Positions 9,438-19,524 of a stretch of 36,610 bases of DNA are shown one piece after another. Positions within the stretch are counted from its first letter, which is position 1, and every line of letters begins with the position of its first letter. The notes below the pieces were generated by a model. The model was not told the DNA's origin. It saw only the letters and a program-made list of their open reading frames with translations, and searched no databases. The stretch is taken from positions 1 through 36,610 of the forward strand of contig CAMBZJ010000030.1 of NCBI GenBank assembly GCA_945872365.1, in the 5' to 3' direction. The position numbers were made by a program, and so were the translations under genes. Origin of the DNA: Klebsiella pneumoniae. GTDB taxonomy: Bacteria > Desulfobacterota > Binatia > UBA12015.

Positions 9438-10040
9438 ATGGACCTGGTCGAACTGTTCGGTGGAATCGTGAAAGGCGTGCGCGTCCTTGGCATGGCCCTC
9501 GTCGGGCTCGCGGCGCTCTGCGCGCTCGCCCCGGTCGGGACGGGCGCGGCGGTGATCCTGCTTCTGGGCCTCGTGCTGCTGGCCGCCGGCCTCCTGCGGG
9601 GAGCCTTCGGCTGGCGCGCGCTGCGCGCCGGAAGGGGCCCGATGGGATTCGTGGTCGGCCTGCTGACCGGGCTGTTCGGGTTCTTCCTCGCGCTGCACCC
9701 GGTCGCGGCCCTCGGCCCGGCGACCTCGCTGGTCGCGCTCTACCTGCTCCTCGACGGCCTCGCCGGTGCCGTCTTCGGCTTCCAGATGCGGCCCGAGGAC
9801 GGCTGGTCGGAAGCCTTCGTCGAGGGGATGCTCTCGATCCTGCTCGCGGCTTCGATCTGGAAGGGATGGCCGGTGGCCGGCGAACGGGCGATCGGTCTCG
9901 TGCTCGCGGCAAAGCTCACCGCGTCCGGCGCCCTCGTCCTGCGGCTGCAGCACAACATCGCCCGCGCCGAGGCCCGCGTGCTCGGCCTGCGCGAGCAGGT
10001 CGCGCGCCGGGTCCGTGCCGGTCGCCAGCCGCTGGCCTAG
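9438..10040 (+). CDS. HdeD-like (DUF308-type) integral membrane protein
   Basis: The protein is 200 residues, almost wholly hydrophobic, with about six predicted transmembrane helices arranged as repeating pairs (for example ALVGLAALCALAPVGTGAAV, VVGLLTGLFGFFLALHPVAA, SMLS/ILLAASIWKGWPVAG). The pattern 'G-x-x-x-L-x-G-x-x-x-x-x-x-P' repeated in each pair is typical of HdeD-like proteins, which sit in the inner membrane and have been linked to acid or stress resistance in some bacteria. The start ATG 9438 is 86 nt from the divergent carboxylase start. Its last four bases overlap the last four of the opposing hydratase gene. Family assignment is by pattern; physiological role unknown. Confidence 0.75.
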   Translation: MDLVELFGGIVKGVRVLGMALVGLAALCALAPVGTGAAVILLLGLVLLAAGLLRGAFGWRALRAGRGPMGFVVGLLTGLFGFFLALHPVAALGPATSLVALYLLLDGLAGAVFGFQMRPEDGWSEAFVEGMLSILLAASIWKGWPVAGERAIGLVLAAKLTASGALVLRLQHNIARAEARVLGLREQVARRVRAGRQPLA

Positions 10041-10810
10041 TCGCCCCGGCGCATCCCGAGTTTCTCGCGCTGGCGCGCACGCGCCGTACGGCTTTCCGCG
10101 GAGCTCCAGACGTCCGCCGCGCGCTCGGCCTCCGCCTCGCTCTCGCCGCGTACGCGCACACCGGTGTCCGCGAGCAGACCCTCCTTGGCGTGCGCATAGG
10201 AGGCCGCGGGGAAGGCACCCAGCCGTGCTGCGCGGCGCAGCACGGTCGCCTCGGCCACGTCGGCGGGCAGCATCTCGTCGACGACGCCGAGCCGGATCGC
10301 CTCGCTCGACGGGTAGATCGACGCTCCCAGGACGAGTTCGCTCGCCCGCGCGGGCGTCAGTCGCAGCTTCACGATCTCCAGGGAGACACGCTTGAAGGAC
10401 GCGCCGATCGCGACCTCGTTCAGGCCGAGCCTCCAGTCGCCGACGGCTCCGAGCCGATAGTCGCAGGCGAGGACCAGGACCAGGCCGCCCGCGGTCGCAT
10501 GGCCGCGGACCAGGGCGACGGTCGGCTTGGGCAGTTCCAGCAGACGCAAGTGCGCCTCGCGGTACAGGTCGCGGAGACGGCGTGTTCCCGCCGCGTCGCG
10601 GCGCTGCAAGCCCAGGTCGAAACCGCCGCAGAAGAAGGCGCCGGCCCCGGTAAGGACGACCGCGCGTACGCCCGGGTCGCGCGCGGCCGCGGAGCAGGCC
10701 GACTCGAGCGCCTCCAGCATCGCCTCGTCGATGGCGTTGGCAGGGGGGCGGTCGAGCGTCAGCAGGAGGACGCCGCCCTCACGGAGATCGCTGCGCACCG
10801 GGGTGGACAT
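10037..10810 (-). CDS. enoyl-CoA hydratase/isomerase (crotonase) family protein
   Basis: The protein is 257 residues, the usual crotonase length. The first oxyanion-hole segment is GAGAFFCGGFDL and the second is RGHATAGGLVLVLACDYRLG. Glutamates sit in LNEVAIGASF and ASELVLGASIY, at places matching the two catalytic Glu of crotonase by rough alignment, so hydratase activity is possible, though the family is functionally broad. It is cytosolic. The start ATG 10810 is isolated, 170 nt from the next gene. Likely role is beta-oxidation or related acyl-CoA chemistry, in keeping with the acyl-CoA carboxylase nearby. The 3' end overlaps the opposing membrane-protein gene by four bases. Confidence 0.9.
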   Translation of the reverse strand: MSTPVRSDLREGGVLLLTLDRPPANAIDEAMLEALESACSAAARDPGVRAVVLTGAGAFFCGGFDLGLQRRDAAGTRRLRDLYREAHLRLLELPKPTVALVRGHATAGGLVLVLACDYRLGAVGDWRLGLNEVAIGASFKRVSLEIVKLRLTPARASELVLGASIYPSSEAIRLGVVDEMLPADVAEATVLRRAARLGAFPAASYAHAKEGLLADTGVRVRGESEAEAERAADVWSSAESRTARARQREKLGMRRGD

Positions 10811-10967: not shown

Positions 10968-10973
10968 AAGGAG
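10968..10973 (+). promoter_or_regulatory. strong ribosome binding site of repeat protein
   Basis: AAGGAG lies 7 nt before the ATG at 10981, an almost ideal Shine-Dalgarno site. It decides the start of the secreted repeat protein and argues that the frame is expressed. Confidence 0.7.
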
Positions 10974-10980
10974 ATGCGTC

Positions 10981-11418
10981 ATGAATCGATCGAAGGCATG
11001 GCTCCTGCTGTTACCGCTCCTGCTGCCAGCCCCGGCCCTCGCGTCCACCGGGAGGACCCCGGGTGCTTCGGCTCCGAGGCAGGGTCGGCCGCCCGTCGTC
11101 CAGCTTGCCGGGACGACCGTGCATAGCGGCAAGAGCAACTCGAGCGAGCGCACGGCCCCGCCCGAGGTGGCCCCGGCGGCGACGACCGTGAAGAGCAGCA
11201 AGAGCAACTCGAACGAGCGCATGGCCCCGCCCGAGGTGGCCCCGGCGGCGACGACCGTGAAGGCCAGCAAGAGCAACTCGAGCGAGCGCACGGCGGCGCC
11301 ACCGCAGCCGCCCGGAGCGTCGAACCTGAACAGCTCGCGCAGCAACCGTATGGCTGCACCGCCGGGTGGCTCGGCGCCGCAACCGTCGATCAACCTGAAC
11401 GGCTCGAAAAGCAACTGA
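10981..11418 (+). CDS. secreted 23-residue-repeat protein, unrecognised
   Basis: The gene encodes 145 residues. A Sec signal peptide is clear: MNRSKAW, a Leu-rich core LLLLPLLLPAP and cleavage after ALA at about residue 22. The mature protein is built from four units of 23 residues plus a partial fifth, each opening with x-[VL]-x-[SAG]-[SG]-[KR]-S-N: TVHSGKSNSSER, TVKSSKSNSNER, TVKASKSNSSER, NLNSSRSNR and NLNGSKSN. Units 1 and 2 end APPEVAPAA. No cysteines, no aromatic residues and almost no acidic residues occur in the repeats, so it is probably extended and soluble in the periplasm or outside. It has a strong ribosome site and stands alone. I know no function. It may be a surface, matrix or adhesin-like peptide, or a structural fibre; all of these are guesses. 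Confidence 0.8.
   Translation: MNRSKAWLLLLPLLLPAPALASTGRTPGASAPRQGRPPVVQLAGTTVHSGKSNSSERTAPPEVAPAATTVKSSKSNSNERMAPPEVAPAATTVKASKSNSSERTAAPPQPPGASNLNSSRSNRMAAPPGGSAPQPSINLNGSKSN
11113..11319 (+). repeat. 69-bp tandem coding repeat
   Basis: Units start at 11113, 11182 and 11251 with ACGACCGTG, an exact 69-nt period. Units 1 and 2 are near-identical at the nucleotide level, unit 3 diverges in its second half, and further protein-level units follow to 11418. The high nucleotide identity suggests recent duplication. Confidence 0.85.
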
Positions 11419-11443: not shown

Positions 11444-11653
11444 TCAGCCCCGCGCCGCCCCGGCGCCGGCCTGCCGTCGCGCGGCGAGATCCTCGGCGTA
11501 GCCCTTCGACAGCGTTCCGAACACCCGGTCCGTCCACACGAGGTACCCCGCGTAGTTCCCGCGCACGCGCAGGTGGTGCATGTCGTGGTGGCGAGCGCCG
11601 TCGTTGCTCGGCAACCAGTGCGTCGGCGTCCGGCCCGGAACCCGTCGGGGAGT
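11444..11653 (-). pseudogene. fatty acid hydroxylase / sterol desaturase C-terminal remnant
   Basis: On the minus strand, ending at TGA 11444-11446, about 65 codons encode the C-terminus of a fatty acid hydroxylase-type enzyme: LPSNDGARHHDMHHLRV, then RGNYAGYLVWTDRVFGTL. HHDMHH is the last of the histidine clusters that bind the di-iron centre, and GNY...DRxFGT is the usual segment after it. The N-terminal histidine clusters and membrane helices are missing, because the frame begins at about the ccmD stop codon. I find no start codon that would yield a functional enzyme. It is a 5'-truncated relic directly downstream of ccmD, so a deletion probably joined the ccm operon to this gene's tail. 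It may still be transcribed with ccmABCD. Confidence 0.8.
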
Positions 11654-15126: not shown

Positions 15127-17274
15127 TCAGGGGATGACCAGGGGCCTGCGCACCGGCGCCACGCCGCAGGCCGAGAGCGGGCCGTCGGCGGTCTGGACGA
15201 GGCGTGCCTCGATCTCATAGTTGCCGGGTGGCAGGTCGCCGGCGTCGATCCAGTTGCCCGAAGATACGGGTTCGCCCGGACGCAGGTCGGCGGGGAAGAA
15301 GAAGTCGATCGCGGGGCGGATCGGGCGCCCGTCTCGAAGAATGCGAGCTTCGCCCTTGACGAGGTGCGCCGGAAAGAACCCGAATGCGGGCCATGGCGTG
15401 TGGCTGCGGTTGACTGCCTCGATGACGAACCACTGCGGGCCTGTGCGGTGCGGGAAGTCGATGGTCGCATCGACGAAGCGGAGCGCGCCCGGGCAACGCG
15501 GTCCGACCGACGTGAGTTCGACGCGGCCGGGTGTCCGGGTCGTGGAGAGGATGCGCGTGCGCATGTCGTCGGTGGCCCGTCGCGTGACCGAGAAGAGCAG
15601 GTCGTCGCCGAATTGCCCCTCCGGCTGCAGGCCATCGGGAAGCGGCTCGGACCAGCGCGCGGCCTGCTCCGGTGTCATCTCGGCGGTGTGGACGAGGATC
15701 CAGCCGAGGTCGACGTTGTTGACCAGGGCCTGCAGGCTGTCTGCCCCGGGAAGGTTCCAGGCGACCCAGTAGAGGTGCTGCGCGGTTCGGGGCGGGTAGC
15801 CGCTGTAGCCGTCGATGATGGGCAGCCAGTGGTAGGTGCTGAGATACATGCGCCGGCCCGCACCCGAGAAGGTGCTCCCCGGCAGTTCCATGAGCGGCCG
15901 TCCGTGTCCGTTCTCCGCGAGCCAGCGCACCGCCCCGGGTAGGTCCGCGGGCGAGGGCTGCTTCGCCAGGTCGACTTCGGGCCGGTTGGCCGCCGACAGC
16001 GCGAGCGAGGCCGCCCCGACAGCGACGGCCGCCGCCCAGGCGACCCGGCGCGAAAGGCGTCGCGCGAGAAGCTGGAAACCCGCGGCGCCGGTCACGGCGA
16101 TCCCGAGTTGCGTGAGTACGAGGAATCTCCCGAGACCGCGCATCGAGGCGAAGCCCGGCACCCAGCGAAACAGCAGCAGCACCGGAGAGGTCAGCTCGCG
16201 GCCACCGAGGTCGACGATCGGCCCCAGTGCCAGCACGACTCCCGCGACGGCGAGTGCGATTCCGCAGCCGATCGGTCTGCGCAGCGCGCCGCCCGCGCGC
16301 AGCGCCGCGCCCACCGCGAGCAGGGCGAGCAGCCAGCCGACCGCGCTCGGACCCGTATGCAACAGGTAGTCGCGAACGAGGAAGGCCGCGTTGGCCGGCT
16401 GCAAACCGGTCATGGCTTGCAGGTCGGTCGGGTCGTAGGTCGGGATCAATCCGAGGGCCCGCAGCTCCAGGTAGGGCCGCGCCATCAGGACCACGGGCAG
16501 CCCCGCCATCCCGAGTGCAAGGGCGAGACCGACGAGACGGCGGGCGTCGAGCCGGTCGCGAAAGCGCCACAGGGCGGGTGGCAGGAGCAACCCGAGCAGG
16601 ATCGCCACGATGTAGGCGAAGTAGAACGAGGTGAGCATCTGCATCGCGACCGCGATCGCGAGCAGGACCGCATCGAACGCACGCGCGCGCTCCAGCCAGC
16701 GCAGGACCAGCAGGATGACAAGCGGCAACCACTGCGCACCCAGCATGTAGACCTGCGGGGGTGCTCCGAAACGCATCGGATGGAAAGCGAACACGATCGC
16801 AGCGAAAGCAGCCGCAGGCGGATCGACCCAGCGCCGCGCAAGTGCGTACGCGGCGAGAGCGCACAGCGGATAGGTGAGGAAGATCAGGATATTCGTCGCG
16901 AATTGCGCGTTGCCGGTCGCAAGGAAGGTCGGTGCGAAAAGCGGTGCAAGTCCGAGAAGGTGCTCCGAGTAGGCGAGTGCATGCTTCGTGGGGTGAAAGA
17001 TGTTGGCCTCGAAGAACTGGCCGAACGGAAGAGAGACCAGTGCGTGCGTGCCCCAGGCGAGTTCCCAGATGATCAGGTTCACGTCGGCGGCGCCTAGCTC
17101 GACGATCTCCGGCACGACGCCGTGGGACTTCCACCAGATCGTGTTCACCGAGTGGTCGCGCCACAGGGCCGGCAAGGGCCACAACCACCACAGGGCGACG
17201 GCGGCGAACGCGAGTGCGAGGAGGATCGCCGTCGCGCCGCGGGAGAGGCGGCCATGGCCTGGCGCGGGAACCAT
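15127..17274 (-). CDS. large polytopic membrane protein, GT-C-like
   Basis: The protein is 715 residues. The N-terminal ~430 residues hold about ten to twelve membrane helices, and the rest is a soluble, probably periplasmic, domain of ~280 residues. The layout resembles GT-C glycosyltransferases and related proteins that use lipid-linked sugars: an acidic loop after the first helix (HSVNTIWWKSHGVVPEI, then ELGAADVNLIIWELAW) and PTKHALAYSEHLLG. A fold of this sort would act at the outer face of the inner membrane. The start ATG 17274 is followed by a short basic stretch and helix 1. It is a single gene, divergent from the peptidase gene. Donor and acceptor are unknown, and a non-enzymatic membrane protein cannot be excluded. 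Confidence 0.6.
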   Translation of the reverse strand: MVPAPGHGRLSRGATAILLALAFAAVALWWLWPLPALWRDHSVNTIWWKSHGVVPEIVELGAADVNLIIWELAWGTHALVSLPFGQFFEANIFHPTKHALAYSEHLLGLAPLFAPTFLATGNAQFATNILIFLTYPLCALAAYALARRWVDPPAAAFAAIVFAFHPMRFGAPPQVYMLGAQWLPLVILLVLRWLERARAFDAVLLAIAVAMQMLTSFYFAYIVAILLGLLLPPALWRFRDRLDARRLVGLALALGMAGLPVVLMARPYLELRALGLIPTYDPTDLQAMTGLQPANAAFLVRDYLLHTGPSAVGWLLALLAVGAALRAGGALRRPIGCGIALAVAGVVLALGPIVDLGGRELTSPVLLLFRWVPGFASMRGLGRFLVLTQLGIAVTGAAGFQLLARRLSRRVAWAAAVAVGAASLALSAANRPEVDLAKQPSPADLPGAVRWLAENGHGRPLMELPGSTFSGAGRRMYLSTYHWLPIIDGYSGYPPRTAQHLYWVAWNLPGADSLQALVNNVDLGWILVHTAEMTPEQAARWSEPLPDGLQPEGQFGDDLLFSVTRRATDDMRTRILSTTRTPGRVELTSVGPRCPGALRFVDATIDFPHRTGPQWFVIEAVNRSHTPWPAFGFFPAHLVKGEARILRDGRPIRPAIDFFFPADLRPGEPVSSGNWIDAGDLPPGNYEIEARLVQTADGPLSACGVAPVRRPLVIP

Positions 17275-17424
17275 CGCGGATGGTTTCTACCCGCCATCGC
17301 GGAGTCGACCAAGCGGGCGGCGATCTCGGCCGCTCTTGAAGAGGCACTCGGCCGTCGCATCAAGGGTCGTCGCCGCCATCGCCGCCGGCGTCGCGCGTTC
17401 GCCGGCGCGTGCTAGGACGTTCGC

Positions 17425-19524
17425 GTGAACGCCGAAAGCGCAAGCGCCGCATCCGACCCCGCTTCTAATCCGTTGCTCGCACCGGGCTCCCCACCCGCCT
17501 TCGACCGCATCCGGCCGGAGCACGTCGTGCCTGCGGTGCGCGCGCTGCTCGCCGAACTCGCGGTTGAACTCGAGCGCGTCGAGGCCGCGGCCGCACCCGA
17601 CTGGCCTCGCTCGGTCGACCCGATCGAACGTATCGGCGACCGGTTGTCGCGGGTCTGGGGCACGGTCGGTCATCTCATGGGGGTGCGGAACTCCGACGAC
17701 TTGCGGCGCGCACACGACGAGGTGCAGGGCGAAGTCGTCGCCTTCTCCATGCGGATGGGCCAGAGCCGTCCGCTCTACCTCGCCTTCAAAGCACTGCGCG
17801 ACGGCCCTGGCTTCGCGTCGCTCGACGCGGCCCAGCAGCGCATCGTGCAGGCACTGGTGCGCGATGCCGAACTCTCGGGCGTCGGCCTCGAGGGCGAGCG
17901 CCAGGAGCGCTTCAACCGCATCCAGGCGGAGCTCGCCGAGGTCGCGACCCGCTTCTCGAACAACGTGCTCGACGCGACGAAGGAATGGAGCCTCCTCCTG
18001 CGCTCGCCCGAGGAAGCCGACGGCCTGCCGGCGAGCCTGCGCGAACTCGCCGCACAGTCCGCGCGCGAGGCCGGGGAGAACGCCGCAACCGCCGCAGTAG
18101 GCCCCTGGCGAATCACGCTTGATGCGCCGACCTATAGTCCCTTCATGCAGCACTCGCGCCGTCGCGACCTGCGCGAGAAGACCTACCGCGCCTTCGTCAC
18201 GCGCGCTTCGAGCGGCGCTCACGACAACGGCGGGGCGATGCTGCGCATCCTGCGGCTGCGACGCGAGGAGGCGGCCCTCCTCGACTACCCGAACTTTGCC
18301 GACGTGAGCCTCGCGACCAAGATGGCGCCCGACGTCGCGACCGTCGAGAAGATGCTCGAGGAATTGCGCCTCGCCTCCTTCGAGCCCGCGCGCCGCGACC
18401 TCGCCGAACTCGTCGAACTCGCCCGCTCCGAGGGTGCGGCCGAAGCGGGCGACCTGCGACCGTGGGACGTCGCCTTCTGGGCCGAGCGCCTGCGCGAGCG
18501 GCGCTTCGAATTCACCGACGAGCAGTTGCGCCCCTACTTTCCGCTGCCGCGCGTGCTGCAGGGACTCTTCGACCTGGTCGGCCGGCTCTTCGAGGTCACC
18601 GTGCGCGCCGCCGACGGCGAGGCGCCGGTGTGGCACCCCGACGTCCGCTTTTTCCGCATCCACGACCGCACCGGCGCGGAGATGGCGGCCTTCTACCTCG
18701 ACCCCTACAGCCGCCCCGCCGAGAAGCGCGGCGGCGCCTGGATGGACGAGTGCGTCGGACGCGCCCCCGGCCGTCTCCCGATCGCGTACCTGGTCTGCAA
18801 CCAGGCACCGCCGGTCGGCGACAAGCCCTCGCTCATGACCTTCGGCGAGGTCGAGACGCTCTTCCACGAGTTCGGACACGGCCTCCAGCACATGCTGACG
18901 CGAGTCGACCATCCGCTCGCCGCCGGGATCCGCAACGTCGAGTGGGATGCCGTCGAACTGCCGAGCCAGTTCATGGAGAACTGGTGCTACCACCGCGAGA
19001 CCCTGCTCGGGCTCTCGGGTCACTGGCAGACCGGCGAGAAGCTGCCGGACGACCTGTTCGCCAAGATCCTCGCCGCGCGCACCTTCCGCTCCGGGTCGGA
19101 CATGCTGCGCCAGATCTACTTCGCCGCGACCGACCTCGCGCTCCACTCGGACTACGATCCCGACGGCCCGGCCTCGCCGATCGACGTCCAGCGTCGCATC
19201 GCGGAGAAGACGACGGTCCTGCCGCCGCTTCCCGAGGACCGCATGCTGTGCAGCTTCAGCCACATCTTCGCGGGCGGCTACGCGGCCGGCTACTACAGCT
19301 ACAAGTGGGCAGAGGTGCTGAGCGCCGACGCGTTCGCCGCCTTCGAGGAAGCAGGACTCGACGACGCGGACGCGGTCGCCGCGACCGGCCGTCGCTACCG
19401 CGACACCGTGCTCGCGCTCGGCGGCAGCCGTCATCCGCTCGAGGTGTTCAGCGCCTTCCGCGGTCGCGCGCCCAGCACCGAGCCGCTTCTCCGCCACGCG
19501 GGACTGTTGCGCCCGGCGGCCTGA
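17425..19524 (+). CDS. prlC: oligopeptidase A (M3 family metallopeptidase)
   Basis: The protein is 699 residues, close to E. coli PrlC. The zinc motif is HEFGH at residues 481-485, with the third ligand Glu in the following NVEWDAVELPSQFMENW segment. Other family blocks: NPLLAPGSPPAFDRIRPEHV at the N-terminus and HIFAGGYAAGYYSYKWAEVL near the C-terminus, which closes over the substrate. It is cytosolic and degrades short peptides, including cleaved signal peptides. The start is GTG 17425. GNAT follows 45 nt downstream and may be in the same transcript. Confidence 0.95.
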   Translation: MNAESASAASDPASNPLLAPGSPPAFDRIRPEHVVPAVRALLAELAVELERVEAAAAPDWPRSVDPIERIGDRLSRVWGTVGHLMGVRNSDDLRRAHDEVQGEVVAFSMRMGQSRPLYLAFKALRDGPGFASLDAAQQRIVQALVRDAELSGVGLEGERQERFNRIQAELAEVATRFSNNVLDATKEWSLLLRSPEEADGLPASLRELAAQSAREAGENAATAAVGPWRITLDAPTYSPFMQHSRRRDLREKTYRAFVTRASSGAHDNGGAMLRILRLRREEAALLDYPNFADVSLATKMAPDVATVEKMLEELRLASFEPARRDLAELVELARSEGAAEAGDLRPWDVAFWAERLRERRFEFTDEQLRPYFPLPRVLQGLFDLVGRLFEVTVRAADGEAPVWHPDVRFFRIHDRTGAEMAAFYLDPYSRPAEKRGGAWMDECVGRAPGRLPIAYLVCNQAPPVGDKPSLMTFGEVETLFHEFGHGLQHMLTRVDHPLAAGIRNVEWDAVELPSQFMENWCYHRETLLGLSGHWQTGEKLPDDLFAKILAARTFRSGSDMLRQIYFAATDLALHSDYDPDGPASPIDVQRRIAEKTTVLPPLPEDRMLCSFSHIFAGGYAAGYYSYKWAEVLSADAFAAFEEAGLDDADAVAATGRRYRDTVLALGGSRHPLEVFSAFRGRAPSTEPLLRHAGLLRPAA

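Follow-up and report, generated by a model that had tools for sequence, protein, structure and literature searches.

A bacterial gene for an exported-looking chain with five copies of a K-S-N peptide unit, and the patchily distributed family of such units

Analysis of the window (the whole stretch of DNA studied here: contig C30, 36,610 bases, 70% G+C, from a 3.1-Mb genome that is 97% complete) revealed a gene for an exported-looking chain in which a modular peptide unit occurs five times. The unit comes in several interchangeable flavours and, to judge from its codons, is selected as a peptide. We tentatively favour the reading that the product is a secreted multi-copy precursor from which peptides of 9–13 residues would be released at Arg, over that of an uncleaved multivalent motif. 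The K-S-N sequence family appears to be new, and the favoured way of working would be of a known kind.

Repeat anatomy and gene neighbourhood

The features of the gene and its surroundings are listed in Table 1. The earlier note on this DNA had described a secreted repeat protein, and its sequence observation was confirmed as a whole, including the ORF, the start that by eye resembles a signal peptide, and the five units. The step from core to core is exactly 69 nt across all five units; the 69-bp period that had been claimed for repeats 1–3 therefore holds, but its restriction to these three was wrong, as repeats 4 and 5 keep the same step. Tandem Repeats Finder reported a period of 69 with 2.7 copies and 92% matches at 11112–11294. 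Three units are near-identical and two are diverged: DNA identity was 93% between units 1 and 2, as expected from the recent duplication that had been proposed, 75–77% between unit 3 and these two, and 45% for unit 4; repeats 4 and 5 have indeed diverged while keeping the core. Units 1 and 2 differ by four replaced residues and no silent codon, with K-S-N untouched.

Table 1. Features of the five-unit gene and its neighbourhood in the window
Feature	Position	Strand	Core (start)	Basis
Enoyl-CoA hydratase	10037-10810	-		Pfam
AAGGAG, ribosome-binding-like stretch	10968..10973	+		Sequence; 7 nt 5' of ATG
Five-unit protein gene, 145 aa	10981..11418	+		ORF list; unit profile re-finds the gene in its own genome
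Signal-peptide-like start MNRSKAWLLLLPLLLPAPALA	10981..11043	+		Judged by eye
Unit 1, F1: TTVHSGKSNSSER + linker TAPPEVAPAA	11113..11181	+	VHSGKSN (11119)	
Unit 2, F1: TTVKSSKSNSNER + linker MAPPEVAPAA	11182..11250	+	VKSSKSN (11188)	
Unit 3, F1: TTVKASKSNSSER + linker TAAPPQPPGA	11251..11319	+	VKASKSN (11257)	
Unit 4, F2: SNLNSSRSN-R + linker	11320..11388	+	LNSSRSN (11326)	
Unit 5, F2, protein end: INLNGSKSN-stop, without Arg	11389..11418	+	LNGSKSN (11395)	
Fatty-acid hydroxylase-like C-terminal remnant	11444-11653	-		PF04116 positions 93-132 of 132, E 3.9e-6
Cytochrome c assembly protein, CcmB, ABC ATPase	Beyond the 11444-11653 remnant	-		Pfam

The [KR]-S-N core, which had been taken as the invariant unit, proved to be part of a larger design with two flavours and a downstream Arg. 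The two main flavours, 12–13 residues long, are F1 (TTVK-x-S-K-S-N-xxx-R) and F2 ([T/S]NLN-x-S-[K/R]-S-N-xx-R). Both occur in the single window chain, where units 1–3, which read TTV[HK]x[GS]KSNS[SN]ER, are F1 and units 4 and 5 are F2; Arg follows the core in all units except the last. The mature chain (residues 23–145 assumed) contains no Cys, Phe, Trp or Tyr, in line with the reported lack of Cys and aromatic residues, and has a pI of 11.6. A single-sequence AlphaFold model was without structure (mean pLDDT 54, weak evidence). None of 20,000 shuffles of the mature chain gave more than one core (16 shuffles gave one) compared with the five observed, and in 300 first-order Markov sequences the six-frame core matches averaged 0.09 and reached 2 at most, compared with 8 observed, 3 of which are scattered chance matches in other frames.

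The fatty-acid hydroxylase remnant, which scored 27.7 bits against a curated cut-off of 31, lies directly behind the repeat gene. The six window neighbours scanned by Pfam suggested no partner for the five-unit gene. A 238-aa minus-strand ORF in the ORF list overlies the gene.

Searches and distribution of the unit

The full-length window protein had no credible relative in protein searches, in tblastn of genome contigs, or in plasmids and phages. The two matches among 98 relatives were the window itself and a frame in G061 (L002), which lies antisense to an acyl-CoA dehydrogenase-like gene. The window protein stayed below every cut-off of Pfam, NCBIfam, PHROGs and PADLOC, in agreement with the earlier statement that it belongs to no known family, and PDB sequences gave no match to the unit profile. 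The core strings searched were absent from the openly licensed PMC papers covered, an absence of little weight.

Searches based on the unit recovered relatives. At E 0.1, unit profile A1 had matches in 22 genomes among the 148 of the class, and only G000 and G005 were kept; profile A2 matched 7 of 395 phylum genomes at E 0.02, of which the window alone was kept. Re-reading of 28 A1 and A2 matches, those on the minus strand on both strands, left this choice unchanged. The dropped matches were lone ones in short or antisense-looking frames or within other proteins, with neither repetition nor an adjacent signal peptide. They included GSKSNSQERVAA in a 316-aa frame (L030, E 6.3e-4) and TVKASRSNSGQR in a 247-aa frame (L020), which indicates that chance can produce an isolated match with an E-value of 1e-3 to 1e-4. 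The weakest accepted matches (G858, G861, G974 and G1140, E 1.5e-4 to 3e-4) were retained on the basis of orthology, further units or a signal peptide. A DNA pattern for T-V-K-x-x-K-S-N-[ST] found 18 loci in genome contigs; five were accepted after frame reading (L038, L041, L046, L047 and L053) and 13 were dropped as short or out-of-context frames. Among these 13 were TVKSSKSNSDNAKRK in a 52-aa frame (L052) and a 70-aa frame of a Deltaproteobacteria MAG (L048, 2656-2681) that ends in TVKSSKSN-stop. None of 13 loci found by pattern in viral contigs was retained. The L048 frame was dropped as uncertain; if accepted, it would be a seventh end without Arg and would fit the Arg rule described below.

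In total, the family comprises 56 units in 25 proteins at 22 loci, from MAGs labelled as Deltaproteobacteria, Methylomirabilota, Dehalococcoidia, Acetothermia and Bordetella (perhaps mislabelled), and from relatives of these. The distribution of the K-S-N unit is rare and patchy. With the starting genome included in each count, profiles built from the growing set of units were positive in 9 of 95 Methylomirabilota genomes, 4 of 100 genomes in the phylum of the Acetothermia MAG, 5 of 245 in the class of the Dehalococcoidia MAG, 2 of 143 in the window's class, 1 of 228 in the window's phylum, 1 of 231 in the phylum of the Dehalococcoidia-class genome G1228, and 1 of 299 in the phylum of the Bordetella-labelled MAG. 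Within the window's family, the profile identified an 87-residue protein of G005 that ends in MATTVKSSKSNSQDRTTVKGSKSNSSE-stop; the window genome and G005 each yielded a single matching unit-bearing protein. The same-genus genomes G001 (95% complete) and G002 (81%) gave no match in full-length or unit-profile searches.

Host proteins and exchange of flavours

The units are carried by diverse proteins. Methylomirabilota hosts are tiny secreted-looking proteins in which, on reading, F1 or F2 directly follows the apparent signal peptide. Acetothermia hosts are three neighbouring paralogues with two units each, with a DUF11 domain in both of the two scanned, and relatives of Acetothermia have proteins with one unit. 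An RHS protein (Pfam PF05593, E 3.8e-7) carries five units with glycine-rich linkers between them. In the Dehalococcoidia class the hosts are linker proteins that bear between two and twelve units and contain the additional flavours INNSKSNTFR, VKSKSNITNNR, INNTKSNIKN and INTSHSNIKNLR. The Chloroflexota linker proteins L119 and L121–L123 have, by eye, no obvious signal peptide. The unit protein of the MAG labelled Bordetella parapertussis (L053) is 56% identical to a Methylomirabilota one, so this label may be a binning error.

Comparison of orthologues and paralogues indicates that flavours replace one another at a fixed site. Four Methylomirabilota genomes have a small gene between the same two neighbours, by reading comF-like and GAPDH genes; in a fifth, where the contig ends, the small gene adjoins one of the two. 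Its product carries F1 in four cases and F2 in one, and the whole proteins are 60–69% identical to the first. The three Acetothermia paralogues (identity of 62 and 76% between the first and the other two) carry F2, F1 and F1 at site 1, and F2, a third form (TIKTTKSNTFR) and F2 at site 2. Invariant among them are S-K-S-N with Arg at site 1 and K-S-N with Arg at site 2. In G527 (L082), a single small ORF separates two genes, one of which carries F1 and the other F2. The core is slightly more variable than the earlier note had stated: [KR]-S-N is invariant in the window units, whereas in the family His replaces Lys or Arg in two cores (L119 and L122). To our knowledge, few short bacterial modules keep their identity on unrelated exported proteins while swapping versions at a fixed site.

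The longest string, twelve K-S-N units of differing flavours, was found in the long linker protein of L119 (G1228, 16377-18755, minus strand). This protein also contains a second repeated motif, PPRDLKDQR, and LGHEVTHTVQQ at its C-terminus, which matches only the last 16 of the 79 positions of eCIS_core (PF13699). This domain was seen in one relative only, at 13.7 bits, below the cut-off of 22, and the window protein gave no match; a reading as an eCIS or Rhs toxin was dropped after this follow-up. L121, L122 and L123 are small K-S-N proteins with [MV]GEKE near the start, and a gene that reads as uvrB-like lies within about 6 kb of the unit genes in L119, L121 and L123. A match between L127 and ExtJ (E 0.61), which lay mostly in the signal peptide, was disregarded, and the AlphaFold model of the DUF11 protein of L047 was too poor for use (mean pLDDT 38.5).

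An Arg rule at unit boundaries

An Arg lies within five residues past the core in 47 out of 50 non-terminal units compared with none of the six units that end a protein; related sequences were counted separately, so that Fisher tests overstate the contrast. Because this count is inflated by the Arg column of the profiles used to find single-unit proteins, we recounted multi-unit proteins, again with related sequences counted separately, and found Arg in 33 of 36 non-terminal and 0 of 6 terminal units. Within the six unit-ended proteins themselves the counts were 12 of 13 and 0 of 6, and in the window 4 of 4 internal units and 0 of 1 terminal. Arg is missing from three non-terminal units, one of L092 and two of L119, which read IKNV.

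The position of Arg is fixed for each flavour: among non-terminal units, three residues separate it from S-N in 25 of 26 F1 units, and two residues in 14 of 16 F2 units. Three terminal units are F1 and read S-N-x-x-x-stop, one F2 unit reads S-N-I-D-stop, and two F2 units, including that of the window, read S-N-stop. The stop therefore stands exactly at the place of Arg in four of six terminal units, and in the other two it follows S-N directly, before the usual F2 place; in unit 4 of the window, Arg directly follows S-N, which is the place of the stop in unit 5. The terminal stops are TGA in four units and TAG in two, with one TAG at the exact place of Arg. Since TAG is more than one change away from every Arg codon, mutation of CGA to TGA cannot account for all of the terminal ends. 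Ala immediately precedes 30 of the 56 units. Kept at a fixed place when the chain continues and dropped at the chain end, Arg behaves like a cleavage residue.

Competing explanations and the favoured reading

Selection acts on the peptide, as far as codon usage can tell, because the core Ser draws on both codon families (50 distinct instances, including a chance match in L102, divide into 30 with AGY and 20 with TCN); this bears out the earlier suggestion of selection on the core. Most variation falls at third codon positions in six of eight motif positions. A motif conserved as DNA, whether a mobile or regulatory element whose reading frame is incidental or a case in which the minus-strand ORF is the gene, would fit that overlying ORF and the spelling of the core S-N as AGC AAC in 28 of 31 copies (the set outside L119–L123, which includes the window units, L046, L053, L082 and L089–L096). 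This predominance arises in part because the DNA search pattern asked for AGC AAC; the spelling also occurs in 10 of 11 copies from protein-profile loci (L082 and L089–L096), and the remaining Ser and Asn codons within the unit are variable. We rejected a DNA-level element as scarcely credible and largely refuted by the split of Ser codons, the third-position variation and a stop within the antisense frame of L041; antisense frames are not preserved, and the sense frame yields signal-peptide-like starts in relatives. A spurious or decaying low-complexity ORF of a GC-rich genome is very unlikely and also largely refuted. The adjoining hydroxylase remnant and the lack of matches in two same-genus genomes would suit it, but the same units occur in the G005 homologue and in 23 other proteins, and shuffles fail to yield them. 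The earlier note had named the lack of any homologue with the same core as a mark of such an ORF, and the 24 proteins found by the unit searches support a real gene.

Among readings in which the peptide matters, it is possible, with less confidence than we place in a precursor, that the units form an uncleaved, disordered multivalent motif, in which K-S-N would dock a partner (glycan, nucleic acid or envelope protein), the copies would give avidity and Arg would be part of the motif. The hydrophilic, basic units within disordered-looking linkers, the high pI of the mature chain, the proteins with five (RHS) and twelve (G1228) units, and the joining of units to DUF11 and other secreted proteins are consistent with this. 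It leaves unexplained, however, why all six protein-ending units lack Arg, and why the stop codon of four of these stands precisely where Arg would be. Alternatively, the unit could mark proteins for an enzyme that acts in trans (by glycosylation, crosslinking or sorting). Such a tag, comparable to C-terminal sorting signals, would agree with a short conserved core on unrelated exported proteins, with interchangeable flavours, and with units at terminal and N-terminal places. We consider it improbable, as a sorting system should serve numerous substrates whereas one unit protein was matched in each of the window genome and G005, the units have no hydrophobic or sortase-type tail, and no linked enzyme was present among the recurrent neighbours listed.

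The Arg rule, the apparent signal peptide, the mature N-terminal placement and the tandem copies together make a precursor of short extracellular peptides the simplest mechanism. We infer that the chain would be exported and then cut before or after the Arg behind each unit, which would free peptides of hydrophilic and basic character, for example TTVKSSKSNSNE(R) and SNLNSSRSN(R); Arg would be dispensable in the last unit because the protein end already frees it. The freed peptides would act extracellularly by binding a partner via their K-S-N core, and specificity would depend on the flavour. The same release would be possible in relatives, in which other proteins bear the unit where the mature chain begins or at their very C-terminal end. 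Besides the Arg rule, this precursor reading is favoured by the Ala before the unit, the exchange of flavours, the split of Ser codons and the structureless AlphaFold model. Against it stand the three internal units without Arg, the two terminal stops that come early, the linker proteins L119 and L121–L123 without an evident signal peptide, and the lack of a match in G001 and G002. Among the recurrent neighbours listed, no protease, transporter or modifying enzyme was a common neighbour, the shared neighbours being clade-specific sets; no RiPP-type modifying enzyme was seen among the six window neighbours (Pfam) or the recurrent neighbours listed for 22 other stretches (ORFs of at least 90 aa, named by eye).

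The interpretation offered in the earlier note was thus partly supported. Its guess of a peptide precursor is favoured by the pattern of Arg and protein ends, whereas a fibre or matrix role is not supported: the AlphaFold model, weak evidence in itself, is structureless, and 14 of the 25 proteins carry one unit, so that fibre-building is not the common denominator. In a broader reading, which we regard as rather unlikely, K-S-N units would constitute an undescribed bacterial peptide 'alphabet', in which F1, F2 and at least three rarer interchangeable words of 12–13 residues would be borne by exported proteins of distant phyla, singly at the mature start, at the C-terminal end, or as many as twelve in a row, with release at Arg and specificity set by flavour. 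If the units are released, they would represent a new class of bacterial extracellular peptide in lineages known mostly from metagenomes, and the peptides would be predictable by the rule SN-xxx-R or SN-xx-R, with Arg lacking from a unit that ends the protein; without such release, the units would represent a new docking motif.

Comparison with known systems

The yeast alpha-factor precursor is a eukaryotic multi-copy pheromone precursor that is cut at basic residues. Precursors of this type resemble the window protein in having a signal peptide, tandem copies, a basic residue at each junction and a last copy without a cutting site. The K-S-N protein differs in being bacterial and in having a single Arg, a candidate cut site only, rather than a dibasic one; no sequence relation is claimed.

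Omega-ester rings, the chemistry of microviridins, use an acidic residue, and F2 mostly has none. A microviridin precursor with several cores is a multi-core peptide precursor (PMC5934393), and the likeness lies in a short conserved peptide present in several copies per precursor with linkers between them. In contrast to that system, the K-S-N neighbourhoods looked at contained no ATP-grasp or modifying gene, the K-S-N signal peptide is apparently of the Sec type, and K-S-N units also occur singly on unrelated proteins.

The bacterial amyloid signalling motifs BASS1-10 (PMC8086366), samples of which in that paper are 20–40 residues long and which occur in Bell/NLR pairs, differ from K-S-N units, which are 12–13 residues long, polar, charged and mostly on exported-looking proteins. 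The string KSN was absent from the main text of that paper, and no Bell or NLR domain was found among nine unit-bearing proteins scanned, the tenth protein of that scan being a neighbouring TPR protein; other neighbours were read by eye. The RHS protein (PF05593) and the protein with the partial eCIS_core match (PF13699) are hosts of K-S-N units and not relatives of the window protein. K-S-N units and the BASS motifs, as presented there, have in common a short motif without a globular fold, and the two flavours in nearby genes of L082 recall the paired arrangement.
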